Shown here: piece by piece, positions 18,409 through 61,374 of the stretch
Layout of the letters: each line of letters starts with the position of its first letter
Position numbering within the stretch: position 1 is the first letter of the stretch
Origin: Sphingobacteriales bacterium 50-39
GTDB taxonomy: Bacteria; Bacteroidota; Bacteroidia; Chitinophagales; Chitinophagaceae
Assembly: GCA_001898505.1 (NCBI GenBank)
Contig: MKTZ01000008.1
Location: 124,001 to 188,000 of the forward strand
Direction of reading: 5' to 3'
DNA: 64,000 nucleotides
Position numbers and translations under genes: made by a program
Notes under the pieces: model-generated
The model's input: the letters and a program-made list of their open reading frames with translations, nothing else
What the model was told of the DNA's origin: nothing
The model's database searches: none

Positions 18409-18462
18409 TCTAACGATTGCTTGCCATATGAAAGAGTTCGACGGCGCGATGCCGTTCTCTCG

Positions 18463-33309: not shown

Positions 33310-33418
33310 TCAGGGCAGTACAGGACAGTGCAGGAGACCTACAGGATGGTTGTATCCGGAAATAATTATATTTTTATTAATATTTCAGCGGATAACCAAC
33401 ACTAACGATCGAAAGACA

Positions 33419-34003: not shown

Positions 34004-34087
34004 TCCGGCACCGCCCGTCCGTCTGGAGGGCGAAAAGAAATTTCGAAAAACAATAGTACTGCCGCTCTGTTCATCCGACTCCTTAGC

Positions 34088-38400: not shown

Positions 38401-38984
38401 ATGGGTTTGGTACCCCGCGGGTGGGTGATTTCAAATACCGGGATCTTAATGGGGATGGAGCCATCGATGATAAAGACATAGCGCCCATCAAATACACGAG
38501 CATTCCGGGTATCAACTATGGGTTTATGTTTTCCGTACGATATAAAAGCCTGGAGCTGACGCCTTTCTTCCAGGGTGTGGCCATGTATTCCGGCAACTAT
38601 GGAAACCAGGGAGTGTATGAATACATCGAAAAGGGAACCTATTTCGGTTACCACAAAACGGCATGGACGCCGGAACGCTATGCAAAAGGGGAAAAAATTA
38701 CCTACCCCGCCCTGAGTACGCATTCAAATACCAATCATACTGCCAATGACTTCTTCATCATGGACCGCTCCTTTATCCGCCTGAAAAATATCGAGCTGGC
38801 TTATAACATGCCTGCCTCGGTGCTGAAGGGATCTGCCCTGAAGGGGTTCAGGATATATGTAAGCGCCCAGAATTATATCACATGGGATCACCTGAAGATG
38901 AAACATTTGGATCCCGAGAACGATGGGTCGCTTGATTATCCTGTTACCAAAACGATCAGTTTCGGGGCGAACATCACCTTCTAA
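35484..38984 (+). CDS. SusC/RagA-family TonB-linked outer-membrane protein with STN signalling domain
   Basis: An 1166-aa protein. It has a long N-region with a signal sequence (MRLTLIILIAACLQVNAKGYAQ), an STN domain at about 50-122 (TPLGTVLQKIKKQSSLHIVYREE, VPLQQALDSCFKDQPVTYEL), a carboxypeptidase-regulatory-like domain at about 139-213, and a plug at about 222-335 (ALAGRLSGLTSIQSGGGQ, LILIDGVPRDN, LKDASSTAVFGVRGANGVILITTRRG). A barrel ends GANITF. It imports glycan oligomers with its SusD partner, and the STN domain signals to FecR. This is the sensor transporter of the locus. Confidence 0.96.
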   Translation: MQLIAFAKASSPGWPGRRLAYSKTWLVMRLTLIILIAACLQVNAKGYAQRVTLHEKNTPLGTVLQKIKKQSSLHIVYREEWMENASGVSVQLVNVPLQQALDSCFKDQPVTYELVDRTLVLKKRETTTSSHEIAPPPPPITITGKVVGADGLPLSNVSILIKGTSTGATTDADGSFRIVVPDERTVLVFSYVGFDSQEIPVRGKKSIDIKLSPSTKTGEDIVVVAYGTQKKVSVTGAVSSVSTDQLKQSSSSSLANALAGRLSGLTSIQSGGGQPGRDDATMYLRGAATTNGTDPLILIDGVPRDNIRTLDANEVASVTVLKDASSTAVFGVRGANGVILITTRRGVAGKMRLSASIDESYTSFSREPERLHSVDYMKLRNEALVNDSIAPAFAQADMDRYANPLAGLNPNDPDYAKQAAFRKYIYPDHDYYREYIASYVPQTRVNLSASGGTDKLSYFVNGTYLHQGGNLRTEPKSVLGYDPSSWMDRYSFRANLDYKISSSLKSFLNIGTYIERVNMPAAWLYGYDTHWMMTDLIYQAQTILPITPGPTTLPGYGVAAGQIVDPGYLDRSAFEIMNRKGYRNEMRSNLNSSFGMELDLSRYVKGLSMKGMISYDSKATTAMEGDKQERLYLAAVDPSTNQLSYSLRPTTESLLNLVKGADSRYNINLQGSINYNRGFGKHAVTAMALAQRDYWEVAGGSSVTLIPYNVVGFAGRATYAYDNRYLAEVNIGYNGSEQFAPANRFGFFPAVSAGWVVSNEKFFRQVDNIVTNLKLRASYGKVGNDQISSQRFLYTDNITMGSGPLGSLAQGQGINLGLLGNPHLSWEVAEKKNFGIDIGLFKDLTVSFDYFTEHRSKILITRQSVPMLQGVPVSNLPKVNMGIVDNRGYELEITYNKELSKDLSIMVRGNYSYNHNIVRFVDEPIRDSSYAYRYRNTGYSLGQQWGYKIDYSNGNGYFNSRNELDAYLGKTTYGFGTPRVGDFKYRDLNGDGAIDDKDIAPIKYTSIPGINYGFMFSVRYKSLELTPFFQGVAMYSGNYGNQGVYEYIEKGTYFGYHKTAWTPERYAKGEKITYPALSTHSNTNHTANDFFIMDRSFIRLKNIELAYNMPASVLKGSALKGFRIYVSAQNYITWDHLKMKHLDPENDGSLDYPVTKTISFGANITF

Positions 38985-39018
38985 GCTTTTACATTAAGTC
39001 ATTAAAAAAACAGAAAGC

Positions 39019-40926: not shown

Positions 40927-40961
40927 CAGTAAAAAAGGTTTAATTGAATTAAAAGATTACA

Positions 40962-43900: not shown

Positions 43901-44099
43901 AAATGTAGCATTGTCGTATATCCTGCCGGCTGCGGTAGCAAGGGCCATTTCAGCGGAAAGGGTCCGGCTTGTGCTTAGCGGGCAGAATTTAATTACCTGG
44001 GATAAAATGAGATCCAAAGATTTTGGTCCCGAAGGCGGAGGCTATAACAGCTTCCCCGTATACAGGGTGTACAATGTAGGTGTCAACATAAACTTTTGA
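40962..44099 (+). CDS. Second SusC/RagA-family TonB-linked outer-membrane protein, no STN domain
   Basis: A 1045-aa protein with a signal peptide (MKYIFTTKITGLLAFVLFCFCGAPLQAQ) followed at once by a carboxypeptidase-regulatory-like domain (KVLDEFDHPLGEAIITSANG). The plug is present (LAGRLSGLTTMETYSEL, LMVIDGIPVSYHAN, LKDASTQALYGIQGANGVMVIKTKRG), as is a barrel ending NVGVNINF. Lacking the STN domain, it should transport but not signal. Its SusD follows after 28 bp. Confidence 0.95.
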   Translation: MKYIFTTKITGLLAFVLFCFCGAPLQAQQVSAIVKGKVLDEFDHPLGEAIITSANGKNATYTNFSGEFSLSIDDNSHAVTVQKRGYLTRSVRLDNNKESFDIKLQHGVDKRDEVVQLGYTSQLRKEVSGAVSTVTGEELERAPVANLSQSLAGRLSGLTTMETYSELSRAKTSLFVRGINSMRANGPLMVIDGIPVSYHANETAEYISPSEIESISVLKDASTQALYGIQGANGVMVIKTKRGVKGPMQIKVSFDQAMQQATTRPAFISSSEYAAMRNQAAINDGYLDPSNPRPLPFTDAQVAAYKAGNNPMYPNNNWYDRYMKDLASMQRVSVNLTAGNDKAQFFSNINVMHQGGYFKTDQTKYDPNANNIWVNFRTNADMQINKYLKAFVRIAGNVKREKSPGAGNAAVYSSIFNTPASVYGPLTPVMKDSAGNVTDPGGQVVATHNNTNPTYGLLNRSGYATSTVTNINSQLGLDIDMSFLAKGLSLSGVFAYQTNAVGTLSTTQNFERWVNADSPNALVFQKYGDYRNTPLVYNKGSVDYYHLSYKTMLNYHRDLGRHSISAMGYAFYQNLTSQDVSSPGLLPYNRLSTGAEAAYGYDDRYFAKFDLGYSGSEQYARSHRYATTPAVSLAWVLSNELFLKSQQKWLSLLKVRASYGKTGNDQSGLNRYAYLNEIRQGGGGFLPYLQYNIAEYTRGNPNIEAEISTKKNLGIDIGLFNALTITADVFHERMTNMIVSATGTIPDYQGIPLNYYPPLNQGIFENEGYEISVNYNKQLSSDLSFNLGAMLSYNKNTIVDIGEASLGSDFVYPKRGTGRSVGVDWGFLVDRSNGNGFFNTQDELNNNTIDYARVGKPRLGDLKFRDLNHNGKIDDGDAVPLTQGMIPRYTYAFSGGLKYQSLELNLLFQGIADYTTFDGGLGIYGNDYDGVYGSLQRNAWTPQRYQDHGKITAPALSLGTSSSMQPSDYYVNNRAYLRLKNVALSYILPAAVARAISAERVRLVLSGQNLITWDKMRSKDFGPEGGGYNSFPVYRVYNVGVNINF

Positions 44100-44127
44100 T
44101 AACTGACAATAACAAAATATTATACAG

Positions 44128-45894
44128 ATGAAATTGAACATAATATGGTTTTGCAGTCTGGCTGTTATGTTAGCAGCGGCTGCATGTAATAAAAAGCTGG
44201 ATCTGGATCCTGATGGGCGGCTCACTTCACTCGACCAGGTCTTTAGCGATTACAACCGCACGAGAGGTTATCTCAATTCCTGCTATGGTTATTGCCCGGG
44301 ACCCTATATGGACAGGGCTTCCTATACCGATGAGGCGGAAGATGCGGATGATATTACCTCCGGATCGAAGTACTCATTTTGGTATGCCGGAAGCATTTCT
44401 GCCGCTACCTATGGCGGATATTCGGAAGACGGCCAGCCCTGGGCGCCGCTATTTCAGGGGGTTGAAAAATGCAACACTTTTTTGCAATACATTAAAACAG
44501 CAACAGCCATCGTTACGGATGAAGAAAAGGCTGGCTGGGTAGCGCAGGCGCACGCACTTCGCGCTTTGTATTATCTGCAATTAATTAAGCGTTATGGCGG
44601 CGTTCCGATCTTTAAAACGCCTCTCGGTATTAGTCATGATTTTTCGAAAGACAGCAAGGCTAAGTTTGGCGATGTGGTGACGTTCATATTAAGCGATTGT
44701 GATTCCGCCTTATCAGCGCCCGATACACGTTTGGGGTTTCACTGGGCAATTTATGATAACCAATTCGGCATTATGAGCCGTGCAGTGGCTTATGCCATCA
44801 AGTCGGAGGCGGTGACCTATGCAGCCAGCCCATTGTGGACTGATGGCACTTTTAGCTGGGCCGATGCTACGAAGATCAATGCCGATGCTTTGTATCAATG
44901 CCTCACCAACGATTATCATTTGTTCAACGTGACGCCAGACCCCAGCACGGCGCAAAATCCTTATGCGCTTTATTTTATCACCAGCTCCAACGACCAGCGC
45001 GCAGTGGATAAAGAAACGATCTACCAGGCGGGCGCCCAAATGCAGGTGTGGAAATATGCGGGTATGCCTACCACTCCCGATATGATAAAAGCTGGGCCCT
45101 GTCCCACCCAGGATATAGTGGACGCGTATGAAATGGCTAATGGCGAAGCTCCCATCACAGGCTATTCCGACAATGCCCATCTCCAGCCTATTATCAACCC
45201 CCTTTCAGGGTATGATCCTGCCAATCCATACGCCGGCAGAGACCCACGGTTTTATGCATCCATTTACTATAATGGAGCCGTACGATACCTGAATAATCCC
45301 GGCGGCCAGACTGTGCAATCTTATATCGGCGGGGCGGATGGTATTTCAAATAGCGACCGCACGCATACCCGCACCGGCTATTACCAGCGTAAATTCAATA
45401 ACTCCCAGTCGGGAACCAATAATAATGCGGATGGCGCTGTACGTTTGTTCCGCCTCGCGGAGATCTACCTGAACTTTGCAGAGTCGGCCTACCAGTCCGA
45501 TGGTCCGGACGCGCCGATCACCGTCAACGGCGCTACCATGTCGGCAAGAGATGCTGTAAATGCCGTAAGAGAAAGGGCAGGCATGCCCGATTTTCCGATT
45601 GGCATGAGTGCGGCTGATTTTGAAACGAAATACCGTAATGAGCGCCGGGTTGAGCTTGCATTCGAAGAGCATCGCTTTTTTGACGTACGCCGCTGGAAGA
45701 TCCTGGGCCAGACGGACAAATTCGTCACAGGCATGAACATTACGCAGAATAATACCGGCACGACGTATTCGAGGTTCCAGTTTCCCGTCAGAGGCAGCTC
45801 TACGGATAAATTCCTGATGTATCCCATTGACCAGGGCGAGGCGGCAAAGATCATGCAGCTGTCCGGAAAGAACTGGCAGAACCCTGGGTGGTAG
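44128..45894 (+). CDS. Second SusD/RagB-family surface glycan-binding lipoprotein
   Basis: A 588-aa protein with a lipobox (MLAAAACNKK). SusD helices (AGWVAQAHALRALYYLQLIKRYGGVPIF) and the C-terminal RagB signature (RERAGMPDFPIGMS, RNERRVELAFEEHRFFDVRRW) are clear, as is the usual SGKNWQNPGW end. It is partner of the second SusC. Two SusC/D pairs in one locus may take up two products of different size. Confidence 0.95.
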   Translation: MKLNIIWFCSLAVMLAAAACNKKLDLDPDGRLTSLDQVFSDYNRTRGYLNSCYGYCPGPYMDRASYTDEAEDADDITSGSKYSFWYAGSISAATYGGYSEDGQPWAPLFQGVEKCNTFLQYIKTATAIVTDEEKAGWVAQAHALRALYYLQLIKRYGGVPIFKTPLGISHDFSKDSKAKFGDVVTFILSDCDSALSAPDTRLGFHWAIYDNQFGIMSRAVAYAIKSEAVTYAASPLWTDGTFSWADATKINADALYQCLTNDYHLFNVTPDPSTAQNPYALYFITSSNDQRAVDKETIYQAGAQMQVWKYAGMPTTPDMIKAGPCPTQDIVDAYEMANGEAPITGYSDNAHLQPIINPLSGYDPANPYAGRDPRFYASIYYNGAVRYLNNPGGQTVQSYIGGADGISNSDRTHTRTGYYQRKFNNSQSGTNNNADGAVRLFRLAEIYLNFAESAYQSDGPDAPITVNGATMSARDAVNAVRERAGMPDFPIGMSAADFETKYRNERRVELAFEEHRFFDVRRWKILGQTDKFVTGMNITQNNTGTTYSRFQFPVRGSSTDKFLMYPIDQGEAAKIMQLSGKNWQNPGW

Positions 45895-47399: not shown

Positions 47400-50300
47400 A
47401 TGAGACTGTTTGTCGGTATAATGCTATTCTTTGTTCAATTGTCTGTAACAGCACAGTCGTATAGTGGTATGCGCTTTATAGAGAATGGCGTAATAAAGCT
47501 TGGAGTTGATCTGGATAAAGGCGGATCGATCACCTATTTGAGCGAGATAGGGAAAGAGAACATGATCAACAACTATGACCTGGGCAGGCAGGTACAGATG
47601 TCATTTTACAGCGGTCCGGTACCTTATGAGCCTGATGGTAAAAAAGCAAACCCCGCATGGGTATCTATTGGCTGGAACCCCATCCAGTCCGGAGATGTAG
47701 CGGGCAACCATTCGAGGATACTTGCTTTTACCAGCGGCAGGAACGAGATATATGTCAAATGTATCCCTATGCACTGGCCGTTGACGAATGTACCTGGAGA
47801 ATGTACCTATGAATGCTGGATAAGGCTCGAAGGTAACACTGTAAAGGTCCGGAGCCGCATAGTAAACCACCGCCCTGATACGACGCAGTTCCCCGCCCGC
47901 AACCAGGAGCTCCCTGCCGTATACACGAATGCGCCCTACCACCGGCTGGTAACTTATATGGGAAGCAAACCTTATACACATGACACGGTGAGCATCCTCA
48001 AGAACCACAACCTGCCACAAAACGGCTGGATAACCTGGCAGTCCTGGCAAGCAACGGAAAGCTGGGCGGCCAATCTCGATGACAACGATTATGGCCTTGG
48101 CATCTGGAACGAAGGCGTGCAACGATTTTCGGGGGGGTACTACGGCGATTCTTCATTTAAAGGGGGCACCCGGGATGTGCCCACTGCATATATCGCACCG
48201 AATGGTTTTGAAGTGCTGGATCATAACATCACGTACGATTATCATTACGTGCTGATAGTAGGGAAACTTGACGTCATACGGAATTATGTGTATCGACAGC
48301 CTCGTCCGGCCCTGCCTGTCTACCATTTCGATAACCAAAGGCAACATTGGTATTATCAAAATACAACAGACAAAGGCTGGCCGGTTAGCGGCGGGCTGGA
48401 AATTAAGCTTAACAGCCAGGCATCGATGAGCAGCCCGATGATACTGTGGAAGGCAGCAGATGCCTCCAACGTGGTGATCGATGCGGATTGGCCGGCTACT
48501 GTAACAAAAGCCCGTGTTTACTTTAGCCGGTGGGGCACGGACGCATATAGTGCAGGCGCCTATATGGATAGCGTAGCATTTAGCGTGACCGGGGGCAGGC
48601 GCCGGTATACCATCCCGCTGACAGGTGCGGCGAATTACCATGGCATTTTCAACGGGCTGAAAATTATGCCGGATCCGAATGGGCAGGCCGGGGCAGGGGA
48701 GAAGGTAAAAATATATTCTATCAGTTTGGCGCAGGACAAAAACACCAGCTATCGCGATCTATTTACCGATACGTGGGTGGCGGCTGATGCGTTAGGGCGA
48801 ACCATGCCCGATGCGGCTACGGTCGGACCGGTGAAAAAAGATAAGCGCCGGATCACTGGTATCTTTTATATCACCTGGCACAGCGATAACCTCGCTGATC
48901 TGAAGAGCCCTTATGCAGGCGACGTAACCAAAGTGCTGGCGGCGGATCCTTCCGCAAGACTCGATGCGCATAATCCCCAGTGGAAAGAAGGCTCTTTGCA
49001 TTGGGGCGAACCTGAGAACGGCTATTTCCTCAGCAAAGATGAATACGTGATCCGAAAAGACATGTCCATGCTGGCCGATGCAGGTGTGGATGTGCTGGTT
49101 ATGGATGTAACCAATGCCGTGCGTTACTGGAGCGAATGGGATACGCTCTTTACCGTGATGCAGAAAATGAAAGCCGAGGGCAATAAAGTGCCGCAGTTTT
49201 GTTTCTGGGCTTTCAACGGTCCGGTGATCACCGTAGTGCAGGATCTGTATGATAAGATATACAAAGCGGAAAAATATAAGGACCTCTGGTTTTACTGGGA
49301 TAATAAGCCCCTGCTGCTTTATAATGACAATCCCGCCGTAGATGCCAACGGGAATAATGCGGCCGATGCCAAAGGCTATTCAGAGGAGGTGAAGCGTTTC
49401 TTTACCTTGCGCACCATGTGGTGGGGTTACTATGAATGGGCCGGCCGACGATTTATTGGTACGGAGGACAACTGGAGCTTTGGTTACGATATGGGTGATA
49501 AAAAGGTGCTTGCCTTGCCGCTTGACAGTTTGGCATCGCGGCATCATGGCAGGATAGAAGAAGCCGCTGTTACGCCGGCACAGCATCCCGCAAGCCTTAC
49601 GGGTAAATCCTGGTCGAGGCAGACAGGTGAACCATCATTGAACCAATATGATCTCCCTGATTCGGCTTATGTGCCCTGGCTGAAAAAGACGGTGAAGCAT
49701 CCTGAAGGCTATGGCATCTACTTTCAGCAAAGATGGGATGAAGCATTGAAGACTGATCCGGATTTCCTGTACCTCAACGACTGGAACGAGTGGACGGCCG
49801 GCAAATATCAGCCAGAGGCAGGGAAGACCTACAGCTTTATGCGCCGTGACAATCCTTATTTTTTTGTTGACCAGTATAATTCGGAGTTCAACCGAACCAT
49901 TCAGCCTATGAAGGGGGGATATACCGACAACTATTATATGCAAATGGCGCAGAATATCCGTCGCTACAAAGGGGTGCGCTCCATTCCTGTGTTGAAAGGG
50001 ATTTCAGCCATGAAGGTCGATGGTGACTTTGCCGACTGGGGAAAAATAAAGACGGAATACCGCGACACAAAGGGCGATGTCTTTCACCGCAGCCATAAGG
50101 GATACGGCGGGACATTTTATGTCGACAGCTCCGGTCGCAACGATATTGTTACCTGTAAGGTGGCGGTGGACAACCGGGACATTTATTTTTATGCAGAGAC
50201 CGCAGATGTGCTTACCTCTTTTTCCGGGAACAATTGGATGTTGTTGCTGATAGATGCCGATAAAAACCCTAATACAGGGTGGCATGGATATGATTTTTTA

Positions 50301-50582
50301 GTCAATAGGAATATTGTCAATGATAAGGTTACCACGCTGATGCACTATGACCCGGCGGGTGGTGGTTGGAAGGAAGTAGCTCAATTAAACTACCGATGCA
50401 AAGGCAATGCATTGGAGCTGGCTGTGCCCCGTCGGCTGCTGGGCGTTACGGGAAGCTCGTTCACCATAGACTTCCACTGGAGCGACAATGTGAGTGATCT
50501 CAATGATCCTATTTCACTCTGTACCAGTGGTGACAGTGCGCCCAACAGGCGATTCAATTATCGTTGTATCTGGAAAAGGTAA
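47400..50582 (+). CDS. Large secreted protein with GH99/GH71/WbsX-like catalytic-type domain and CBM9/DOMON-like C-terminus
   Basis: A 1060-aa protein. It has a signal peptide (1-19), an N-terminal beta domain of mutarotase-like appearance (about 20-310), a carbohydrate-binding-type beta domain (about 310-450), then a TIM-barrel region from IFYITWHSDNLADL. This contains LADAGVDVLVMDVTN, W795-N-E797-W-T-A800-G and PMKGGYTDNYYMQ. The C-terminal domain (about 865-1060) has LLIDADKNPNTGWHGYDF. Characterised GH99 enzymes have ExxE at the acid pair; here it is ExxA. It is the middle of an operon with 10-13 bp gaps. Substrate is unknown. Confidence 0.75.
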   Translation: MRLFVGIMLFFVQLSVTAQSYSGMRFIENGVIKLGVDLDKGGSITYLSEIGKENMINNYDLGRQVQMSFYSGPVPYEPDGKKANPAWVSIGWNPIQSGDVAGNHSRILAFTSGRNEIYVKCIPMHWPLTNVPGECTYECWIRLEGNTVKVRSRIVNHRPDTTQFPARNQELPAVYTNAPYHRLVTYMGSKPYTHDTVSILKNHNLPQNGWITWQSWQATESWAANLDDNDYGLGIWNEGVQRFSGGYYGDSSFKGGTRDVPTAYIAPNGFEVLDHNITYDYHYVLIVGKLDVIRNYVYRQPRPALPVYHFDNQRQHWYYQNTTDKGWPVSGGLEIKLNSQASMSSPMILWKAADASNVVIDADWPATVTKARVYFSRWGTDAYSAGAYMDSVAFSVTGGRRRYTIPLTGAANYHGIFNGLKIMPDPNGQAGAGEKVKIYSISLAQDKNTSYRDLFTDTWVAADALGRTMPDAATVGPVKKDKRRITGIFYITWHSDNLADLKSPYAGDVTKVLAADPSARLDAHNPQWKEGSLHWGEPENGYFLSKDEYVIRKDMSMLADAGVDVLVMDVTNAVRYWSEWDTLFTVMQKMKAEGNKVPQFCFWAFNGPVITVVQDLYDKIYKAEKYKDLWFYWDNKPLLLYNDNPAVDANGNNAADAKGYSEEVKRFFTLRTMWWGYYEWAGRRFIGTEDNWSFGYDMGDKKVLALPLDSLASRHHGRIEEAAVTPAQHPASLTGKSWSRQTGEPSLNQYDLPDSAYVPWLKKTVKHPEGYGIYFQQRWDEALKTDPDFLYLNDWNEWTAGKYQPEAGKTYSFMRRDNPYFFVDQYNSEFNRTIQPMKGGYTDNYYMQMAQNIRRYKGVRSIPVLKGISAMKVDGDFADWGKIKTEYRDTKGDVFHRSHKGYGGTFYVDSSGRNDIVTCKVAVDNRDIYFYAETADVLTSFSGNNWMLLLIDADKNPNTGWHGYDFLVNRNIVNDKVTTLMHYDPAGGGWKEVAQLNYRCKGNALELAVPRRLLGVTGSSFTIDFHWSDNVSDLNDPISLCTSGDSAPNRRFNYRCIWKR

Positions 50583-50592
50583 AATTCATAAA

Positions 50593-53500
50593 ATGTTATT
50601 TAAAAGATCAGGCATTTCACTATTCTTTTTTCTTCTTTCTACCCTGACATATACCGCTACAGCACAGGTGAAAGATAAATTCCATCCTTTAGCATCGGGG
50701 GCTATCAAACTGAACGGGTATTTGGAGGATGATATCGAAAGGTCGATAGCCAATTGGAATTTAGGCGTCGTACCCTATGACAGCCTCGCGCTCTTATTTA
50801 AGAATGGGAGGTCGTTCATGGCTCAGGGAGAGATGTGGGGCAAGGCGGTGCGTTCAGGGTGTATGTTCTACCGATATAACAGGGACCCCAGGCTAAAGGT
50901 GGTCTTAAAGAAAGCTATCAACGAACTGCTGTCCTACAAGAGGGGTAATGGCAGCATCAGCTGTACAAAAGAGGAAGCCCAGCCCGATGGTCCGGGTGGA
51001 GACATCTGGGAAAGGAAATATGTCATGCTGGGCCTGGAAGGCTATTACACCGAGGTGGAAGCGGACACTTCCATACTTAATACGCTGGTGCAGCAGGCCG
51101 ATATCCTGCTATCTCAGGTCGGACCTTCCCCCAAAACCCGTATTGTCGACCTTGGATGGAGCCCAAATCATATTGAATCGAGCACGGTGCTGGAGCCCAT
51201 CATGAGATTGTATAATCTCACCGGGTACGCACGGTACCTGGATTTTGCCAGATATATCGTGGAGACGGAGGGCGGCGCCAAAGGAGAAAATATCATAGAA
51301 TCGGCCTACCAGGGAAAGGATCCTGCCACGATGGGAGGAGTCTATCCCAAGGCCTATGAGATGATGTCTTTATTTGAAGGGGTGCTGGAATACTACCGGG
51401 TGACTCAAAACAAAAAGTGGTTAACGGCTGCCCTTAACTTATTTGAAAAGATCAAGCAGAAAGAAATAACCATCATAGGCAATGGCGGAGGTGATCTGCC
51501 TTATCATCCGGACGTTATGGGAGAGGCATGGGACTATACTGCTCTGGAGCAAACCAACCCCGACATAAAAAGGATGATGGAGACATGTGCGGGGGTCACG
51601 TGGATGAAGCTATGTTCCCAGATCCTGCGACTGACAGGAGAGGAGAGTGCGGTTGATATGATCGAGCAGTATGCGTACAATGGTCTTCTAGGGGCGATGA
51701 AGCCGGAAGGGGACGGTTTTAGCTATGTCAATTTGTTGAATGGCGTCAAAACAAATACAACGGGATGGGGTGGAAAAATAAACGGGGTCGATATCACTTG
51801 TTGTAATTTGAACGGCCCTATGGGTCTGGCGTATATACCCTACATTGCGGTGATGCAATCTTCCGGAGGCCCAGTGATCAATCTTTTCAATTCCTCCTCC
51901 TCTTCCATGACGCTGCCTTCGGGTGGCAGGCTGCAAATGGAGATCGAGTCGGCGTTCCCTCGGAGCGGGCTGGTGAAGATCAGGGTCGGGGTGGAAAAAA
52001 AAGAGGCCTTCCCCATCCAGGTGCGGATCCCTCAATGGAGTGGGAACACGGTGGTGATCGTCGATGGAAGGGAATATATGCCGCTGCCTGGCAGGTACAT
52101 GGAAATAAAAAGGCTTTGGAAGAACGGGGATTCCATCCTTGTTAAACTGGACATGCGCTGTAAGGTATTGAATGCTCCGAAAGGAAGTAACAGGCAGGGC
52201 GATAACTATCAGGCCCTGACCGTTGGCCCCATTGTTCTGGCGAGGGACGAGAACATCGACAGCAATTATAACCAGCCGGTAAAAATTATTTCCGGTAATG
52301 GCATTGTTGCCGTGAAACCTTATAAGCCCACCGGATACAGGCTGTCCTACCAGGTCCCTACCAGCAAAGGATATATCAGGATGGTAGATTATGCTTCGGT
52401 GAATAACTGGAACAGTGGGCATGTTTGTACATGGCTGCCTACGTTGGAGGCTCAGGCGCCGGCCGACTACTCGTCTACCCTGATCGCCACGGACGCGCTG
52501 GGCAGGAAGCTGCCTGGCTATAAAGAAGTAGGAGAGCCGCGGAATAACAAGTTCGTAGGCCTGTTCTACTGGACCTGGCATACCCGGCCCGGTAGGGAAA
52601 ATCCTCCGTTCAATGTCACCGAATACCTTGCGCGCGACCCGAAAGCCATCGACGACTACAACAATCCCATCTGGCCGCGACGCAATAGCCCCTGGTTTTG
52701 GGGAGAGCCCTTGCTGGGGTACTATCTCGACACCGACGAATGGGTGCTGCGCAAACATGCGGAAATGTTGGCCGACGCCGGTGTGGATGTGATCATCTTC
52801 GATTGCACCAATGGCAATATCACCTGGAAGGAATCTTACACGAAACTCTGCGAAGTATTTACCAAGGCAAGGAAAGACGGAGTGCATGCGCCACAGATCG
52901 CGTTTATGTTGCCCTTCTGGCTCAGCGATGGCGGCAAAGAGATACTGCGGGAGATCTATACGGACCTCTACAGGCCGGGTAAGTACAAAGACCTGTGGTT
53001 CATCTGGAAAGGCAAGCCCCTTGTGATGGGTATGCCTGAATTTGCCGACGACATCGCGGGCAGACAGAACGACCCGGCCCTAAGAGAGGAGATGAAAAGC
53101 TTTTTTACCTTCCGCCCTGGTCAGCCTGCATATAATATAGGCCCCGCAAGGCCCGACCATTGGGGCTGGCTGGAGATCTACCCCCAGCATGGTTTTGGAA
53201 AGAATATAAGTGCGGGATTCGAACAGGTGACCGTAGGCGTGGCGCAGAACTGGAGCAAGGAGAGAGGACTTACCGCCATGAATGCCCCTGGCGCCTTCGG
53301 CAGAAGCTATACCCATGAAAAAGGTCAAATTACCGAGCCCGGCGCCGTGAATAAAGGCTACAACTTCCAGGAACAATGGAACAGGGCCTTGGAATTGGAT
53401 CCCGAATTTATCTTCATCACCGGCTGGAATGAGTGGGTAGCCGGTCGCTACGATGTATGGCAGCAGCAAACCAATGCATTCCCCGATGAGTGCAATGAAG

Positions 53501-54186
53501 AAGGCAGCCGCGATGTAGAACCCATGAAAGGCGGACATGGAGACAATTACTATTACCAGATGGTGAGCAATATCCGTAGATTCAAGGGGATGCCGGCGCC
53601 ACAGCCGGTGTCTGCGCCGCTGACGGTACAGATCGATGGCAAATTCCCGGAATGGAACGCCGTCACGCCGGCATTTGCCTCGTATGGGGGGAATACGCTG
53701 CACCGTAACAGCCCTGGCTGGGGTAGTCTGCACTATACCAATAACACCGGCCGCAATGATATTGTGCTGGCCAAGGTGGCCAGGGACAAAGACAATCTCT
53801 ATTTCTACGTGGAGACAGCGGCGCCGCTCACTCCTAAGACCGACCGGGGCTGGATGCGGCTGTTCATCGATGTGGACAACAATAAGAACACCGGCTGGGA
53901 AGGGTATGATTTTGTGGTCAACCGTATCAACCCCGGCAAAAAGGCGGTACTGGAGAGGACGGACGGTTCCTGGTACTGGCAGCGGGCAGGTGAGCTGGAC
54001 TATGCCGTCGAAGGCAATAAAATGGAGATCAAAATACCCAGGTCCCTGCTGGGCATCAACGGCGAGATAGATCTCGGTTTCAAATGGAGCGACAACATGC
54101 AGCAGGAAGGAGAGATCACCGACTGGATCATCAATGGCGACGTGGCTCCTGCGGGCCGGTTTAATTTCCATTTCACGACAAAATAA
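50593..54186 (+). CDS. Secreted GH127-like beta-L-arabinofuranosidase fused to GH99/GH71-like and CBM9-like domains
   Basis: A 1197-aa protein. A signal peptide (1-24) precedes an alpha/alpha barrel with the GH127 metal/nucleophile set: E330 and C332 in METCAGVTW, and C403-C404 in ITCCNLNGP, spaced as E338/C340/C417/C418 in HypBA1. A beta domain follows, then the ATDALGR linker and a TIM-barrel region (GLFYWTWH, LADAGVDVIIFDCTN, W945-N-E947-W-V-A950-G, PMKGGHGDNYYYQ), and a C-terminal CBM9/DOMON-like domain (LFIDVDNNKNTGWEGYDF). The fusion of GH127 with this barrel looks unusual. ATG 50593 is chosen since the reading upstream lies in the previous gene. Confidence 0.85.
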   Translation: MLFKRSGISLFFFLLSTLTYTATAQVKDKFHPLASGAIKLNGYLEDDIERSIANWNLGVVPYDSLALLFKNGRSFMAQGEMWGKAVRSGCMFYRYNRDPRLKVVLKKAINELLSYKRGNGSISCTKEEAQPDGPGGDIWERKYVMLGLEGYYTEVEADTSILNTLVQQADILLSQVGPSPKTRIVDLGWSPNHIESSTVLEPIMRLYNLTGYARYLDFARYIVETEGGAKGENIIESAYQGKDPATMGGVYPKAYEMMSLFEGVLEYYRVTQNKKWLTAALNLFEKIKQKEITIIGNGGGDLPYHPDVMGEAWDYTALEQTNPDIKRMMETCAGVTWMKLCSQILRLTGEESAVDMIEQYAYNGLLGAMKPEGDGFSYVNLLNGVKTNTTGWGGKINGVDITCCNLNGPMGLAYIPYIAVMQSSGGPVINLFNSSSSSMTLPSGGRLQMEIESAFPRSGLVKIRVGVEKKEAFPIQVRIPQWSGNTVVIVDGREYMPLPGRYMEIKRLWKNGDSILVKLDMRCKVLNAPKGSNRQGDNYQALTVGPIVLARDENIDSNYNQPVKIISGNGIVAVKPYKPTGYRLSYQVPTSKGYIRMVDYASVNNWNSGHVCTWLPTLEAQAPADYSSTLIATDALGRKLPGYKEVGEPRNNKFVGLFYWTWHTRPGRENPPFNVTEYLARDPKAIDDYNNPIWPRRNSPWFWGEPLLGYYLDTDEWVLRKHAEMLADAGVDVIIFDCTNGNITWKESYTKLCEVFTKARKDGVHAPQIAFMLPFWLSDGGKEILREIYTDLYRPGKYKDLWFIWKGKPLVMGMPEFADDIAGRQNDPALREEMKSFFTFRPGQPAYNIGPARPDHWGWLEIYPQHGFGKNISAGFEQVTVGVAQNWSKERGLTAMNAPGAFGRSYTHEKGQITEPGAVNKGYNFQEQWNRALELDPEFIFITGWNEWVAGRYDVWQQQTNAFPDECNEEGSRDVEPMKGGHGDNYYYQMVSNIRRFKGMPAPQPVSAPLTVQIDGKFPEWNAVTPAFASYGGNTLHRNSPGWGSLHYTNNTGRNDIVLAKVARDKDNLYFYVETAAPLTPKTDRGWMRLFIDVDNNKNTGWEGYDFVVNRINPGKKAVLERTDGSWYWQRAGELDYAVEGNKMEIKIPRSLLGINGEIDLGFKWSDNMQQEGEITDWIINGDVAPAGRFNFHFTTK

Positions 54187-54189
54187 AAT

Positions 54190-55449
54190 ATGCCACCCCT
54201 ATTCGGAGAAAGACCCCGTTTCTTTTTGCTGCTGGCAGCGTTTTGCTGGATCGGCGCAGGATATGCGCAAAGCAGCGCTGCTTCGACCTCGTCGACTGTG
54301 GAACAATTACAGCTGATTACCCGAATAGCCCGCCTGCGGTTGCAACTGCAGGCTGCCGCCTACCGCCAGTGCAATGGGCTGCCGCTGGCCGCGCAGCAAA
54401 AGGCTGCGGGTATCATCGCCGAGCTTCTGAACCGTGCCGAACAGCGGGAACTACAGGTATTGCCCAAGGGCCGCTTTGATTGGAGCTGGTCCGGCTTCGA
54501 CCAGCCCGACGGTATGGTCGGCTATGCCGACAGTCTGTTACAGGTGCTGGCCGCGGGCAGAGATCCTTTTGAAGGCAAATTCGCGGAACCTGGCGGCCAC
54601 GTCGTCGATCATGCGCTGATCGAAAAGGACGGCAAACATCACCTCTTCTACATCAGGGGCACAGCCGCCACCAGCTGGGCCGAATTCCCAACCAATAACT
54701 TCGGGCATGCCATCAGCACGAACCTGAAGGACTGGACGATAGAGGAGCCGGTGCTGCAGGCGCCGGAAAAAGGCTGGGACAACTACCAGGTATGGGCGCC
54801 CTATATCCTCCGGCACAAAGGAAAGTATTTCATGTTCTATGCCGGGGTGAATAACAATGTGGCGCAGGCTATTGGCCTTGCCACTTCCGACGATCTGTAT
54901 CACTGGGAGCGATATAGCGACGCACCCGTGATCACTACAGGCCGATGGGGAATATGGGACAGCGGGCAATGGTCGGACTGCCGGGACCCGATGGTCTTAC
55001 AGGACGGGGATACCTTCTATTGCTATTATACCGCACAGCGGAAGGATACGGTCAGCGGACGGATCGAGCCCTGTGTAGGAATATCCAGCTCGACAGATCT
55101 GTACCACTGGAAAGATGAAGGGTTTATCAGGCTGGAGATGAGCCTGGATACGCCTCCCGAATCACCCTTTGTCGTCAGACACGACGGCCGCTACTACCTG
55201 TTCTATACGTCCTACCGCTATGGCACCGTATATGCCACCAGTGCCCACCCCGTAAAAGGCTGGCGCCAGGAGGCAGGAGAAGGCTCGGTAGTGCTACCCG
55301 GTGTGTCGGCCTCGGAAGTATATCAATCCAAAGGACAATGGTATCTCTCGCTGATATCTCACCAGCGAAATGGGCTGCATTTCTTCGAGATCAGGAGGAT
55401 GAGCTGGGACAAGGCGGGCCGGGTACGGGTCGAGCCCCTAAAAAAGTAA
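54190..55449 (+). CDS. Secreted beta-propeller glycoside hydrolase, GH43/GH32-like
   Basis: A 419-aa protein. A signal peptide (ending GYAQ) and a helical segment (about 38-85) precede the propeller. Candidate triad: D in GGHVVDHALIEKDGKHHLFY, D in WSDCRDPMVLQDG (RDP motif) and E in TPPESPFVVRHDGRYYLFY, in the order and spacing expected of clan F/J furanosidases. The WAPYILRHKGKYFMFYAG block is typical of the blade sequence. It starts 3 bp after the GH127-fusion stop, indicating coupled translation. Likely acts on arabinofuranosides or fructans; not determined. Confidence 0.8.
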   Translation: MPPLFGERPRFFLLLAAFCWIGAGYAQSSAASTSSTVEQLQLITRIARLRLQLQAAAYRQCNGLPLAAQQKAAGIIAELLNRAEQRELQVLPKGRFDWSWSGFDQPDGMVGYADSLLQVLAAGRDPFEGKFAEPGGHVVDHALIEKDGKHHLFYIRGTAATSWAEFPTNNFGHAISTNLKDWTIEEPVLQAPEKGWDNYQVWAPYILRHKGKYFMFYAGVNNNVAQAIGLATSDDLYHWERYSDAPVITTGRWGIWDSGQWSDCRDPMVLQDGDTFYCYYTAQRKDTVSGRIEPCVGISSSTDLYHWKDEGFIRLEMSLDTPPESPFVVRHDGRYYLFYTSYRYGTVYATSAHPVKGWRQEAGEGSVVLPGVSASEVYQSKGQWYLSLISHQRNGLHFFEIRRMSWDKAGRVRVEPLKK

Positions 55450-55459
55450 ACCCTTGCAT

Positions 55460-57163
55460 ATGAAATACAATTTATTATCTATTATCTTCATTATCCTGGT
55501 GACGGGCAGCTGTAAGAAGACGTCCGTACACTCGCTTTCTACCACCAAACCGAGATCAGTCATCAATTGGGCATCCACCGACATCCCGGTGACCAGTGTA
55601 GCCGCCTCTTCCCAGCTATGGCCGGCTTCGGCGCTCAACGACAGCGATTCTTTGACGATATGGAGCTCGAATGTCCATAGCAATATCAACAGCACGGAAT
55701 GGGTGGCCTATTGGTTCAATGGCTTCCACAACGTCAATTATATTAAAGTGTTCCCACGGTATAACGCTACAGGAGCGTTGGGGTTCCCTGTCAAATTCGA
55801 CATCTACTGGTCCAATGGCAGCAGCTGGGTGCACTCCCGCAGCGATACTGCTTTTCCCACTCCCCTGGCTGATTGGGTGATCCTGCCCCTGCCCGCCACT
55901 GTCAATGCCAACGGCATACAAATCGTCGCTACACAGCTTGGCAAGGACGATGTCAACAATATCGTGTTTCAGCTGGGTGAAGTAAGCGCCGGCTATGACA
56001 CCACACTCGCCAGTTTTACCTGGCTGGGCAATAACAATACTTACCAGCAAAACGAGATCAGGAGCGTCGGATCGGGGGCTTTCAATCCCAATAAGATCTC
56101 CAACTGGAACTACGATGTCCGAAATCCTATCATTACGGCCAAGGCAGGCGGCAACAGCAATATCTATGCTCCGAATGTGGTGAGCAATGGGGGAGCCTGG
56201 AACATCTATTTCGGCGGCTGGGACGGGACTACCGACGGTGACGATCGAATATCTATCACCGTCAGCAATGACAATTTCCTCACCTTCAATCCGCATGCGT
56301 TGATGATCAGCAATGGGGTCATGGTTCATTGCAATAACGAAACGACCATGAAGCAGCCGGATGGCAGCTGGCTCATGTATTATACTACCTTGCCCTCCTC
56401 GCCGCAATTGAACAAGCCGGCCTATGCTACCTCTCCCGATGGTGTCACCTGGACCCCCAATGCCGGAAATGCCAGCTACCTGATCAACATGAGCGGCTAT
56501 CCCAACTGGAGCCTGGCGGATGTCAACGGGTCCAATGTCATCTATTATGAGAATGGTACCTACCACCTTTATTTCACCGACTTCAGCTATGCCACAGATG
56601 GTAACGCCTTTGCCGTGCATCATGCTACCAGCACTGACATGATCAACTTTACCTATACAGGAGATGTGCTGCCGGAAGGACTGGTGGCCCAGGATGTGAA
56701 AAAACTCACCTATAATGGTACGAGCTACTACATGATGGTGCTTCACCTGAATGGAAGTTTCTTAAAATATAGCATGGGCACATCGCCCGTAAACTTTTCC
56801 GCCAGCCAGCAGCTGTTGACCAATCTCAACAATAATGATAAATACATCACCTCCGCCGGCTGGGTAGTAAAGGATAACAGGCTGTATGGCGTACTTTATG
56901 GCGCCGGAGCTGTGTCCACTCTTGACCACAATGCCATTCATGCCAAATGGCTGCAGAAAAAAGTGATCTTTATCAGCGACCGGAATGGAGCCCGCTGGGG
57001 GGATATTGAAAGGGCCTATGGACCCGACAGGATCTGGCTGTATATGAATACGAATATAGAAACGGGACATTTTTATGTATATGACAGCGATGGAACTACC
57101 TTATTATATACCAGCCCTAAGATCACGATGCGTTCGGGAGATATCTGGAACTATGCCTTGTAA
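55460..57163 (+). CDS. Lipoprotein with discoidin (F5/8 type C)-like domain and beta-propeller
   Basis: A 567-aa lipoprotein (lipobox LVTGSC) from MKYNLL. Residues about 40-185 resemble an F5/8C domain (ASSQLWPASALNDSDSLTIWSS, WVAYWFNGFHNVNYIKVFPR), a sugar-binding fold. The rest is a propeller-like domain (NIYAPNVVSNGGAWNIYFGGWDG, MKQPDGSWLMYYTTLP, WSLADVNGSNVIYYENGTYHLYFTD) similar to GH43-like lipoproteins, but without a clear complete acid triad. It may bind or trim glycan at the cell surface. Confidence 0.7.
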   Translation: MKYNLLSIIFIILVTGSCKKTSVHSLSTTKPRSVINWASTDIPVTSVAASSQLWPASALNDSDSLTIWSSNVHSNINSTEWVAYWFNGFHNVNYIKVFPRYNATGALGFPVKFDIYWSNGSSWVHSRSDTAFPTPLADWVILPLPATVNANGIQIVATQLGKDDVNNIVFQLGEVSAGYDTTLASFTWLGNNNTYQQNEIRSVGSGAFNPNKISNWNYDVRNPIITAKAGGNSNIYAPNVVSNGGAWNIYFGGWDGTTDGDDRISITVSNDNFLTFNPHALMISNGVMVHCNNETTMKQPDGSWLMYYTTLPSSPQLNKPAYATSPDGVTWTPNAGNASYLINMSGYPNWSLADVNGSNVIYYENGTYHLYFTDFSYATDGNAFAVHHATSTDMINFTYTGDVLPEGLVAQDVKKLTYNGTSYYMMVLHLNGSFLKYSMGTSPVNFSASQQLLTNLNNNDKYITSAGWVVKDNRLYGVLYGAGAVSTLDHNAIHAKWLQKKVIFISDRNGARWGDIERAYGPDRIWLYMNTNIETGHFYVYDSDGTTLLYTSPKITMRSGDIWNYAL

Positions 57164-57179
57164 AACTTCAATAGTAGAA

Positions 57180-58310
57180 ATGAAAAGAGCGACATTATTA
57201 TTCGCTGTGCTAATCCTGGTCTTTTTCCTGACGTCCTGCAAAAAGAGCTCAACTGCGTCAAATGCTGACAACAAGCATTATGTAGCTGTTTTTTATTTTG
57301 CCAACTATGGGTCAAGCCAATACGCCCAGGGGGCGCTGGCCCCAACGGGAGATGCCTGGATCGTAAACGGGCAAACCCCGGCATTCAGCCCTTACGGCCT
57401 CCCCAATTTCTGGGGCAAGCCGCTCTTTGCCGCTACCCACGGTGATGGCACTATTAAGAATAATTATCGTTTTTACTTTAATGATGACCCTGCCCAGACG
57501 AATGATTCGCTGCTCGACTGGCACGCCAGGCTGCTGTCCGATGCAGACGTCGACCTGATCGTGCTCGACTTTACCAATGGTGCGGGTGATTTTCCCAACG
57601 GACCGTCTTATCTTTCCGCAACCACAGCATTATGCAACCGCTGGCAGGCCCTGAGGAGAAAAGGGGTAAAAACGCCGCAGATCGCCTTCTTTGTACGCAA
57701 TGCGACTGCGCTGAGCATAGTAGAAGACCGCTACTTTAACCAGTATGATGCGAGCCTCTTCTTCCATTACCTTGGCAAAAAGCTGGTGCTCGTGGCCCGG
57801 CCTAATGACAACCTGGAAAATTATGACCCTGCCCAGCCTGCCGTGCCGACAGCGGGGATCTTTGCAAATTACACAGCCCGTCATTGCTGGGGAAATATGA
57901 CTTCCGGCACTTGCTGGCAGTTTAAGGTCAACAGCAACCCGCCTCCGTCGCCCTTTATGTACAATGGCCAGCCGGAACAATTATGCGCACCCGTGGCTGA
58001 TCAGCTTAGTTATATGACTACCGATGGCATTAACGTTACCCAGGGTGCACAGGGGAGGCAGAACGGGGATTACTTTTCAATGTATATGAATGCCGCTGCA
58101 ACAAACAAAGTAAAATTCGTATTCATCCATTCCTGGAATGAATGGAACGCGGGAAATTGGGGCACCCAGGATAAGCCATATTTTGTAGACTTGTGGAACC
58201 AGGAGTATAGCGCGGATATTGAACCCATGTACGGCGGCCATGGCGATCAATACTACCAGCTGATGAAATCGGAAATCGCAAAATTCAGACAGGCTGTGAA
58301 CGGCCAATAA
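57180..58310 (+). CDS. Lipoprotein consisting of a single GH99/GH71/WbsX-like domain
   Basis: From ATG 57180 this is a 376-aa lipoprotein (lipobox FFLTSC). The domain matches that in the two larger proteins: FYFANYG start, LSDADVDLIVLDFTN, W319-N-E321-W-N-A324-G and PMYGGHGDQYYQL. It lacks the linker and the C-terminal CBM-like module. Like the others it has ExxA where GH99 has ExxE. The ATG at 57180 overlaps no upstream coding and gives the signal; the ORF upstream to 57075 overlaps the previous gene. Confidence 0.75.
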   Translation: MKRATLLFAVLILVFFLTSCKKSSTASNADNKHYVAVFYFANYGSSQYAQGALAPTGDAWIVNGQTPAFSPYGLPNFWGKPLFAATHGDGTIKNNYRFYFNDDPAQTNDSLLDWHARLLSDADVDLIVLDFTNGAGDFPNGPSYLSATTALCNRWQALRRKGVKTPQIAFFVRNATALSIVEDRYFNQYDASLFFHYLGKKLVLVARPNDNLENYDPAQPAVPTAGIFANYTARHCWGNMTSGTCWQFKVNSNPPPSPFMYNGQPEQLCAPVADQLSYMTTDGINVTQGAQGRQNGDYFSMYMNAAATNKVKFVFIHSWNEWNAGNWGTQDKPYFVDLWNQEYSADIEPMYGGHGDQYYQLMKSEIAKFRQAVNGQ

Positions 58311-58316
58311 ATTGCT

Positions 58317-59582
58317 ATGACACGAAAAATTATATTGCTCCTTTTTTTGCTGAAGGGAATTCTTACTACCAGCTTTGCTCAACATCAGAATGAAGCAATG
58401 GCTGATTACAGGTTACCGGATGTGATGCTTGCAAAATCCGGTATAAGGATAAGTTCAGCGGCAGGTTGGGAGAAAATGCGCCGGCCCGAAATATTGGCTT
58501 TGTTTGAAGAAAATGTGCAGGGCAAAACGCCCGCAAAAAAAATACCGCTGCGGTTTGTTACAATATCAATTAACTACGATGCATTAAATGGAATAGCTAC
58601 CCGGAAGCAGGTCCGTGTGTATTTTTCAAAGAGTGAAAAATATTATATGGATATCCTGATGTATGTCCCGAACAAAAGAACCGTGCCGGCGCCGCTGTTT
58701 TTAGGATTGAATTTTGGAGGGAACCAGGTTGTTGATGCCGATACAGGGATACTAATTTCAAAAGGATGGGTTCCGTATGCGCCCCAACCAGCTTACATCA
58801 ATCATTTGGGAACAGAGGCTTCCCGTGGCATTCAGCGCAATGACTGGCCTGTAGAAAAAATTGTTGCAGCAGGATATGGCCTGGCTACCGTATATTATGG
58901 AGATATTCAGCCGGATAGCGTTAATAGCGTCAATGCAGGAGTGGCTCCATTGTTTTACAAGGATGGACAAACCCGACCGGCGGCAGATGAATGGGGCGCC
59001 ATAGGCGTATGGGCCTGGGGTTTAAGCCGGGCGTTGGACTACATGGAAACAGACAAAGACATTGATGCAGGAAAAGTGGCGGTAGTGGGGCACTCCCGAT
59101 TGGGTAAGGCAGCGCTTTGGGCGGGAGCGCAGGATCAGAGATTTGCGTTGGTTATCTCTAATAATTCAGGAGAAGGCGGAGCTGCTATTACAAGAACGAA
59201 ATACGGCGAAACCATTGCTTTAATGAATAAGGCTTTCCCCCACTGGTTTTGTGACAACTTTAAAAAGTATAATGACAAGGAAGATGAGTTGCCCATTGAT
59301 TTTCATGAATTGGTCGCATTGATTGCCCCACGACCTGTGTATATAGCCAGCGCTTCACAAGATCAGTGGGCAGATCCTGTAGGGGAATATTTATCTGCGT
59401 GGTATGCAACTCCGGTGTATGGTTTATATGGGTTAAAAGGATTAGATACCATTGTTCCGCCCGATGTCAACCACCCGGTGGGTGAAGGCGCAATCGGGTA
59501 TCATCTTCGAAAAGGCGAACATGCCATGACCCAGTACGATTGGGATCAATATATACGTTTTGCAAACCGATGCCTTAAATAA
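58317..59582 (+). CDS. CE15-like glucuronoyl esterase
   Basis: A 421-aa secreted alpha/beta hydrolase. The nucleophile Ser260 is in VVGHSRLGKAALWAG, followed by NNSGEGGAAITRTKYGE and a C-terminal histidine in RKGEHAMTQYDWDQY, consistent with bacterial CE15. CE15 cleaves esters between glucuronic acid and lignin or other alcohols. The gene is clearly more AT-rich than neighbouring GH78 (43-45% GC in three sampled 60-base lines versus 58% in one GH78 line), suggesting separate acquisition. It lies 6 bp after the previous stop. Confidence 0.85.
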   Translation: MTRKIILLLFLLKGILTTSFAQHQNEAMADYRLPDVMLAKSGIRISSAAGWEKMRRPEILALFEENVQGKTPAKKIPLRFVTISINYDALNGIATRKQVRVYFSKSEKYYMDILMYVPNKRTVPAPLFLGLNFGGNQVVDADTGILISKGWVPYAPQPAYINHLGTEASRGIQRNDWPVEKIVAAGYGLATVYYGDIQPDSVNSVNAGVAPLFYKDGQTRPAADEWGAIGVWAWGLSRALDYMETDKDIDAGKVAVVGHSRLGKAALWAGAQDQRFALVISNNSGEGGAAITRTKYGETIALMNKAFPHWFCDNFKKYNDKEDELPIDFHELVALIAPRPVYIASASQDQWADPVGEYLSAWYATPVYGLYGLKGLDTIVPPDVNHPVGEGAIGYHLRKGEHAMTQYDWDQYIRFANRCLK

Positions 59583-59592
59583 AGAACTAATA

Positions 59593-61374
59593 ATGAAATT
59601 GTTTTCAAAGACATGCTTATTGTTCCTGATCCTCCCCGGAACCATAAAAGCCCAGCTGCCGCCTGTGTTTGAACCTGGTCGGTCTAAAACAGCACAATCT
59701 ACCGAAACCGTCCGGCGATATCTTTCACCGGTGAAAATAGTATGGAGAGCTGAAAATGTCCATATTGAAAATGCCGAACGCTTGCTGTTGCCCGGCAATG
59801 GACAGGCCGACCTGGCGAATAAGGATATGTGTGTCCTGAGGAGCGAAGGCGGTATCCAGCCGGCCCTGCTGCTCGACTTCGGCAGGGAGCTGCACGGGGG
59901 ACTTCAGATCGTAACAGGGATGCATAAATCCGGAAAGCCGGTACGCGTCCGCGTTCGTTTTGGCGAGTCGGCCAGCGAGGCTATGAGCGAGATAGAGCCC
60001 AGGCAAAACGCTACCAACGACCATGCGATGCGCGATGAGGTCGTGCAGCTGCCCTGGCTGGGCAAGCTGGAGATAGGCAATACCGGCTTCCGCTTTGTGC
60101 GTATCGACCTGCTGGATGCCGACGCCGAGCTGCAGCTTAAGGAAGTACGCGCCATATTCACATTCAGGGACTTGCGCTATCTGGGGTCCTTCCATTGCAG
60201 CGATACGTTGCTGGACAAGATCTGGCTCACCGGGGCTTATACCGTGCAGCTGAACATGCAGGATTATCTCTGGGACGGTATCAAACGTGACAGACTGGTA
60301 TGGGTGGGCGATATGCACCCGGAGACTTCCACCATCAGCGCCGTATTCGGCAACAATGAGATAGTACCCAAAAGTCTTGATCTCTCCCGTGACATCACGC
60401 CCCTGCCCGCGTGGATGAATGGGATCAGCACCTACTCCATGTGGTGGATCATCATTCACAGGGACTGGTACTACCACAACGGCAACCTGCCCTACCTCCA
60501 ACAACAGAAAGACTACCTCGTCAGGCTGCTGGCGCAAATCATCGGCAAGATCGACAGCAGCGGCAGGGAACAGCTGGATGGTACCCGTTTTCTGGACTGG
60601 CCTTCCAGCGAGAACAAAAAAGGCGTGGATGCGGGTCTTCAGGCCATGATGATCTGGGCGCTGACAGACGGGGCTGACTTGTGCAGGATCCTGGACGAAG
60701 CTGCGATTGCCGCCCGATGTGAAGCAGCGGTGGCACGCCTGAAGAAGAACGTACCTGATCACAACCAATCCAAACAGGCTGCGGCCCTGATGGCGCTAAC
60801 CGGCCTCATGCCGGCGCAAAAGGCCAACGATGAAGTGCTGGCTGTTGACGGGGCAAAGGGCTTTTCTACATTCTATGGGTATTACATGCTGCAGGCTATG
60901 GCCAAAGCCGGCAACTACCAGGGTGCATTGGATGCTATACGCAGCTTCTGGGGGGGCATGCTGAACCTGGGCGCCACCACTTTCTGGGAAGATTTCAACC
61001 TGGACTGGCTGCCCAATGCTTCCCGTATAGACGAGCTGCCAAAATCCGGCCAGAAAGATATACATGGCGACTATGGCGCATACTGCTACGTAGGCTTCCG
61101 TCATAGCCTCTGCCACGGATGGGCTTCGGGACCTACACCCTGGCTAACCCAGTATGTGCTGGGAATTAGCGTGGTAGAACCCGGCGCCAAGACCATAAGG
61201 GTCGAGCCGCACCTTGGCGACCTGCAATTTGCCGAAGGCAGTTACCCCACCCCTTATGGGCTGGTAAAAGTGAAACATGTGAAGCAACCCGATGGCAGGA
61301 TCGCCTCTACCATTACGGCGCCAAAGCAGGTAAAGGTGATCCGGGGAAGCTATCAGCGGGGAAATCCTTTTTGA
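59593..61374 (+). CDS. GH78-like alpha-L-rhamnosidase
   Basis: From ATG 59593 this is a 593-aa secreted protein. It has an N-terminal beta domain (VRVRFGESASEAMSE) and an alpha/alpha barrel with GH78 motifs: LWDGIKRDRLVWVGDMHPE (acidic residues of the catalytic pocket), GATTFWEDF (candidate base), and LCHGWASGPTPWL. It ends with the C-terminal beta domain (GVVEPGAKTIRVEPHLGDL). It removes terminal alpha-L-rhamnose, fitting arabinogalactan or rhamnogalacturonan. The stop overlaps the convergent GcvH-like gene by 22 bp. The ORF upstream start at 59560 overlaps the esterase. Confidence 0.88.
   Translation: MKLFSKTCLLFLILPGTIKAQLPPVFEPGRSKTAQSTETVRRYLSPVKIVWRAENVHIENAERLLLPGNGQADLANKDMCVLRSEGGIQPALLLDFGRELHGGLQIVTGMHKSGKPVRVRVRFGESASEAMSEIEPRQNATNDHAMRDEVVQLPWLGKLEIGNTGFRFVRIDLLDADAELQLKEVRAIFTFRDLRYLGSFHCSDTLLDKIWLTGAYTVQLNMQDYLWDGIKRDRLVWVGDMHPETSTISAVFGNNEIVPKSLDLSRDITPLPAWMNGISTYSMWWIIIHRDWYYHNGNLPYLQQQKDYLVRLLAQIIGKIDSSGREQLDGTRFLDWPSSENKKGVDAGLQAMMIWALTDGADLCRILDEAAIAARCEAAVARLKKNVPDHNQSKQAAALMALTGLMPAQKANDEVLAVDGAKGFSTFYGYYMLQAMAKAGNYQGALDAIRSFWGGMLNLGATTFWEDFNLDWLPNASRIDELPKSGQKDIHGDYGAYCYVGFRHSLCHGWASGPTPWLTQYVLGISVVEPGAKTIRVEPHLGDLQFAEGSYPTPYGLVKVKHVKQPDGRIASTITAPKQVKVIRGSYQRGNPF

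Follow-up and report, generated by a model that had tools for sequence, protein, structure and literature searches.

The window analysed here, a 64-kb stretch of the 7.9 Mb genome of Sphingobacteriales bacterium 50-39, encodes three proteins (P1, P2 and P3) whose barrels resemble those of the glycoside hydrolase (GH) families GH71 and GH99 and of WbsX, and in which alanine takes the place of the second glutamate of the ExxE motif (ExxA). Our prediction, tentative and held at a little under an even chance, is that P1, P2 and P3 represent one ExxA clade of these barrels and are secreted hydrolases acting on L-rhamnose-containing glycans.

Three homologous barrels of one ExxA group

The residues named in the original prediction (E797/A800 in P1, E947/A950 in P2 and E321/A324 in P3) matched the translations and a motif scan exactly (Table 1). 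Two of the sequence blocks said to be shared, PMxGGxxDxYY and DxTN, were present in all three proteins, but LADAGVDV was found only in two and the third reads LSDADVDL. With E-values computed at a nominal database size of 1e6, BLASTP aligned P1 to P2 at 35% identity across 609 aa (E 5e-102), P2 to P3 at 30% across 332 aa (E 2e-22) and P1 to P3 at 25% across 308 aa (E 3e-14). A profile-profile comparison between nine P3-type rows and a further 48 ExxA rows gave E 4e-49. Because of these values, chance sharing of the motifs was ruled out, and the three barrels are, as judged from sequence, homologous.

The substitution was then followed through 226 homologues, 106 of P3 and 120 of the P1 barrel (the top-ranked of 3093); two of the 226 (P0004 and P0110) are almost the same as proteins encoded in the window. 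ExxA proved to be clade-wide: the second position was alanine in 220 of the 226, asparagine, serine, valine or threonine in four and glutamate or aspartate in none, with no motif visible in the remaining two (P0036 and P0057), while the first glutamate was kept in 224. In the fetched loci, 66 open reading frames (ORFs) contained WNEW. The second position was alanine in 61 of them, glycine or valine in three, and glutamate in two, namely a WbsX protein in locus L100 and a similar protein in L094; FNEWMA was the sequence in another two copies. Tandem ExxA copies recurred, with three in L091, four in L092 and two each in L024, L094, L103 and L104, among others. A search of genome contigs returned one P3 relative only.

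In a 67-row tree, a single branch divided 57 ExxA rows from ten ExxE rows (bootstrap 100, Shimodaira–Hasegawa-like approximate likelihood ratio test 99), with a warning from the program that long branches meet at this split. The ten ExxE rows were PF14307 or PF16317 matches plus two neighbours, with no characterised GH99 among them. P1, P2 and P3 lay on the ExxA branch in three different sub-clades, and therefore the window holds, on the evidence of the tree, three anciently separated paralogues from a single ExxA group. Since one branch holds the ExxA rows, three independent losses of the second glutamate were rejected, subject to the long-branch warning. The distinct subfamily proposed earlier gained support, and the repeated loss in three copies did not.

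Neutral decay, in which the second glutamate has gone and the domain is drifting, has that absent residue as its sole support and is already contradicted by conservation. The 120 listed P1-barrel homologues (the best 120 of 3093) have identities of at least 71% and come from sources that include ones named Hydrogenedentes, Armatimonadetes and Chitinophaga, and 174 of 430 barrel columns were at least 98% conserved in 119 proteins. We therefore consider decay scarcely credible. At least one member (P0129) is already labelled GH71/99 in databases. The accessible text of a 2026 paper remarks on the paucity of information about proteins annotated 71/99-like (PMC13421300). No description of an ExxA group was found in the literature searched, most subscription papers lying outside its reach. 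By its sequences, the ExxA group is widespread and uncharacterised, with alanine almost always at the position of the second acid.

Relation to GH99, GH71 and WbsX

The predicted structure of the P1 core (predicted local distance difference test score 93) is a (beta/alpha)8 barrel of the GH99 and GH71 type. With a homologous barrel and a NEW/ND motif where strand 8 ends, the proteins fall within the broad GH71/GH99/WbsX superfamily, and the equivalence of WNEW to the GH99 motif, which the original prediction had assumed, holds. P1, P2 and P3 have neither the ExxE dyad (EWHE) of GH99 nor the DxxE dyad of GH71. PF16317, with a gathering score of 33 bits, gave 15.3 bits for P2, 15.8 bits for P3 and no match for P1, and at best 27.2 bits among nine ExxA relatives; it was a precomputed annotation on seven of the best 120 P1-barrel homologues and matched once in a search over 119 genomes. 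The WbsX family PF14307 (cut-off 25.1 bits, with WNEWxE) gave 15.9 bits for P3 and nothing for P1 or P2 at E 1. PDB searches with P3 or P1 alone returned nothing useful, and an NCBIfam search with P1 and P3 gave no meaningful match. Profile A3 had lectins as its best PDB matches, an effect of the additional domains present in some of its rows. With hhalign, the P3 rows aligned to a small WbsX set over the NEW motif (probability 94%), and the whole ExxA set aligned to it over the first half of the barrel only (probability 13%).

The ExxA group differs from the GH99 endo-alpha-mannosidases and endo-mannanases (BtGH99, 4acy; BxGH99, 5m3w) by alanine at the second catalytic glutamate, by a C-terminal module resembling carbohydrate-binding modules (CBMs) in P1 and P2, and by sequence scores below the Pfam cut-off. 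In contrast to the GH71 alpha-1,3-glucanases (AnGH71C, 9fnf; Agn1p, 9m6l), which have DxxE, it naturally lacks the glutamate whose mutation in AnGH71C (E268A) cost about 15,000-fold in activity, against about 6,000-fold for D265A, according to the accessible text of a paper that also describes one dyad serving two different mechanisms in GH99 and GH71 (PMC12394665). WbsX proteins share the NEW motif followed by (L/I)EP, but keep WNEWxE. Such a protein with an intact WNEWxE stands in ExxA locus L100 (L100:13477-14652; tested) and a similar one in L094 (L094:5816-7054; assigned by clustering), and these side-by-side proteins form a natural contrast pair. The GH195 sulfated alpha-mannan endo-hydrolase, as described in the accessible text, resembles the ExxA units as a distant GH99 relative fused to another catalytic domain, but its substrate is a mannan; this likeness is one of description, without sequence comparison (PMC13063451).

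Conserved residues and a candidate acid

Residue counts were taken from 198 aligned ExxA sequences, not made unique, out of 200 picked for WNEW; the two excluded sequences, both WbsX-type, had glutamate at the second position. W, N, E and W are invariant in this alignment because of how the sequences were picked. Outside the motif, P1 D569 was aspartate in 196 of the 198, K636 was lysine in 195 and E829 was glutamate in 189, and the counts for D824 and E720 are given in Table 1. The two ExxE proteins in the alignment lack the segment with D824 and E829. From the motif to the next (I)EP there were 27-55 residues in ExxA versus nine in ExxE rows, WbsX included, a spacing readable in 50 of 57 and five of ten rows, respectively.

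Since this longer segment carries an almost invariant aspartate, we propose a relocated acid. E797 (E947, E321) would be the base or the nucleophile, and D824 (D965, D337) in the insertion would stand in for the absent general acid; E829 and E720 are less likely candidates for that part. It is possible, though on balance rather doubtful, that the clade is an unrecognised GH family for L-rhamnose-containing polymers, with the first glutamate kept, the invariant aspartate after strand 8 as its acid and a role in loci for both breakdown and exopolysaccharide biosynthesis.

Gene neighbourhoods and the substrate

Within the family of the host (f1, Chitinophagaceae to judge from named homologues), 12 genomes were chosen for carrying ExxA genes. 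In these, a GH78 domain lay within 10 kb of 11 of 19 ExxA loci versus 0.57 expected under uniform placement (82 of 104 GH78 matches used, the 22 weakest dropped). In a control on four of these genomes, GH78 lay within 11 kb of six of eight ExxA loci versus four of 138 SusD genes (the strongest 150 of 357 matches, less 12 near ExxA genes), and simple clustering in polysaccharide utilisation loci (PULs) does not explain the link in those four genomes. Scoring was confined to the leading candidates of each genome, so ExxA loci may be missing from both tests.

A paralogue in the host genome (L027:8830-13320, contig C4) joins an ExxA unit and a complete GH78 in a single polypeptide of 1496 aa, within a catabolic cluster of rhamnose type. 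Around it lie another GH78 gene and genes for a class II aldolase, a xylose-isomerase-like protein and an FGGY kinase; of the NCBIfam models, the kinase matches rhamnulokinase best, though under the cut-off. By similarity to this locus, the aldolase, isomerase and GH78 recurred with a separate ExxA gene in L028, L093, L099, L102 and L125. In L101, the ExxA gene (L101:5307-9587) adjoins rmlB, rmlC and rmlA, each over its curated cut-off, and a UDP-galactopyranose mutase, in a polysaccharide cluster that also encodes a repeat-unit polymerase; the L101 genes tested did not include an rmlD. By clustering, a second set of similar genes lies nearby in opposite orientation. A GH106 rhamnosidase domain was found in one of 100 other proteins carrying the N-terminal module of P1 (P0230, 59% identity). 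From these neighbours we infer that the substrate holds L-rhamnose or a related 6-deoxyhexose, and the arabinogalactan and pectin fragments suggested earlier give way to rhamnose-containing glycans. The GH174-fold module of P1, the GH127 domain of P2 and the GH78 protein would act on the same polymer.

In family f86, 27 of 200 genomes searched had ExxA matches. Ten loci there (L105, L106, L108, L110, L112, L113 and L115-L118) are Wzi-like, sugar-transferase or glycosyltransferase-like clusters, with representatives tested and the rest assigned by clustering. Exopolysaccharide processing appears likelier than feeding in these ten clusters. Most of them also have a PF12708-type gene close by. 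DUF5722 was fused or adjacent to ExxA in L107:9055-12918 and L120:5470-9320, with nearby genes sulfatase-like by eye.

Hydrolysis, binding or other chemistry

Several observations weigh against rhamnose-directed hydrolases. Eight of the 19 ExxA loci had no GH78 within 10 kb, and the link fails in family f86, since only one of 24 fetched loci showed a GH78-like ORF (L107, an edge fragment). The sugar-catabolism genes of L027 score under the curated cut-offs of their best NCBIfam models, and the substrate is read from neighbours only. D824 could be structural or substrate-binding instead. Domains of catalytic type (GH78, GH127 and DUF5722) occur fused to ExxA units, which fits a binding module too, and the title of Robb et al. 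2017 names a GH99-related protein lacking catalytic machinery. That protein is presumably OpGH99A (5ngw), which was absent from the ExxA profile matches at E 10.

The ExxA units might then be glycan-binding pseudoenzymes that have kept the cleft, lost hydrolysis and present the polymer to fused or neighbouring enzymes (GH127, GH78 and the GH174 fold). We consider this unlikely: binding has no obvious need for the first glutamate, yet it is almost always kept, and the P1 unit already has its own CBM-like module. A ricin-B lectin match appeared among the profile results for P3-type relatives, some of which have extra modules (PF14200, PF00652 and PF03422, which we take to be lectin or CBM families), the usual layout of a catalytic domain with a CBM. 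Less probable still is a chemistry that needs no protein acid at this position, such as that of a lyase, a phosphorylase or a transglycosylase, or hydrolysis of substrates with activated leaving groups. It would suit a barrel that has lost the acid and kept the first glutamate, and trimming or transfer is conceivable because members occur both in uptake loci and in biosynthesis clusters of exopolysaccharide type, but no direct evidence speaks for any of these reactions.

The locus and its domain architecture

The three genes lie in a Bacteroidota-type PUL from about 33350 to 61374. Its order is an extracytoplasmic function (ECF) sigma factor, FecR, two SusC/SusD pairs, a weak GH43-match gene, P1, P2, a GH43/GH32-like gene, a weak GH32-match gene, P3, a glucuronyl-esterase-like gene and a GH78-like gene. 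The multidomain build of P1 and P2, with a C-terminal CBM-like module common to both, was absent from the original prediction. The N-terminal module of P1 matches no Pfam family, and a PDB search with its profile returned nothing useful; it recurs in varying protein contexts, where its partners include sulfatase, GH43 and GH106 domains. The N-terminal half of P2 belongs to GH127 by PF07944 (104.2 bits versus a cut-off of 24.9), and by model it is not an aceric acid hydrolase, since it scored 105.7 bits, far under the cut-off of 950. Elsewhere in the window, a tRNA-Cys gene lies at 18462-18533 on the minus strand.

Table 1. Positions in the window of the PUL genes, domains and residues discussed
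Feature	Position	Strand	Remarks
ECF sigma factor and FecR-type gene	33350..35335	+	upstream of SusC/SusD pairs
Two SusC/SusD pairs	35484..45894	+	PF07715, PF07980
P1, 1060 aa	47400..50582	+	N-terminal GH174-fold module, ExxA barrel, CBM-like module
P1 supersandwich module, residues 20-455	47457..48764	+	predicted; nearest solved folds GH174 endo-1,3-fucanase, PL26 also listed
P1 GH71/GH99-like (beta/alpha)8 barrel	48780..49985	+	
P1 E720	49557..49559	+	Glu in 190/198 aligned ExxA
P1 WNEWTA (W795-A800)	49782..49799	+	motif scan; E797 kept, A800 replaces second Glu
P1 D824, candidate relocated acid	49869..49871	+	post-motif insertion; Asp in 197/198 ExxA
P1 C-terminal beta-sandwich module	49983..50579	+	CBM74-like
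P2, 1197 aa	50593..54186	+	GH127 domain, ExxA barrel, CBM-like module
P2 GH127 catalytic and middle domains	50806..52155	+	PF07944 E 1e-29, PF20736 E 4e-17
P2 WNEWVA (W945-A950)	53425..53442	+	motif scan; E947 kept, A950 replaces second Glu
P2 D965	53485..53487	+	counterpart of P1 D824
P3, 376 aa	57180..58310	+	ExxA barrel by homology; lipoprotein-like signal LTSC, read by eye
P3 WNEWNA (W319-A324)	58134..58151	+	motif scan; E321 kept, A324 replaces second Glu
P3 D337	58188..58190	+	counterpart of P1 D824
Glucuronyl-esterase-like protein	58317..59582	+	PF22244 E 3e-32
GH78 alpha-L-rhamnosidase-like protein	59590..61374	+	PF17389 E 2e-16, PF17390, PF21104

Significance

A large and strongly conserved sister group without the acid of the dyad would be a natural test of acid replacement or of the way in which such barrels become binding proteins. 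Through its association with GH78 and rhamnose genes, this large uncharacterised group (3093 P1-barrel matches, of which the best 120 were examined) now has a definite class of substrates on which it can be tested.
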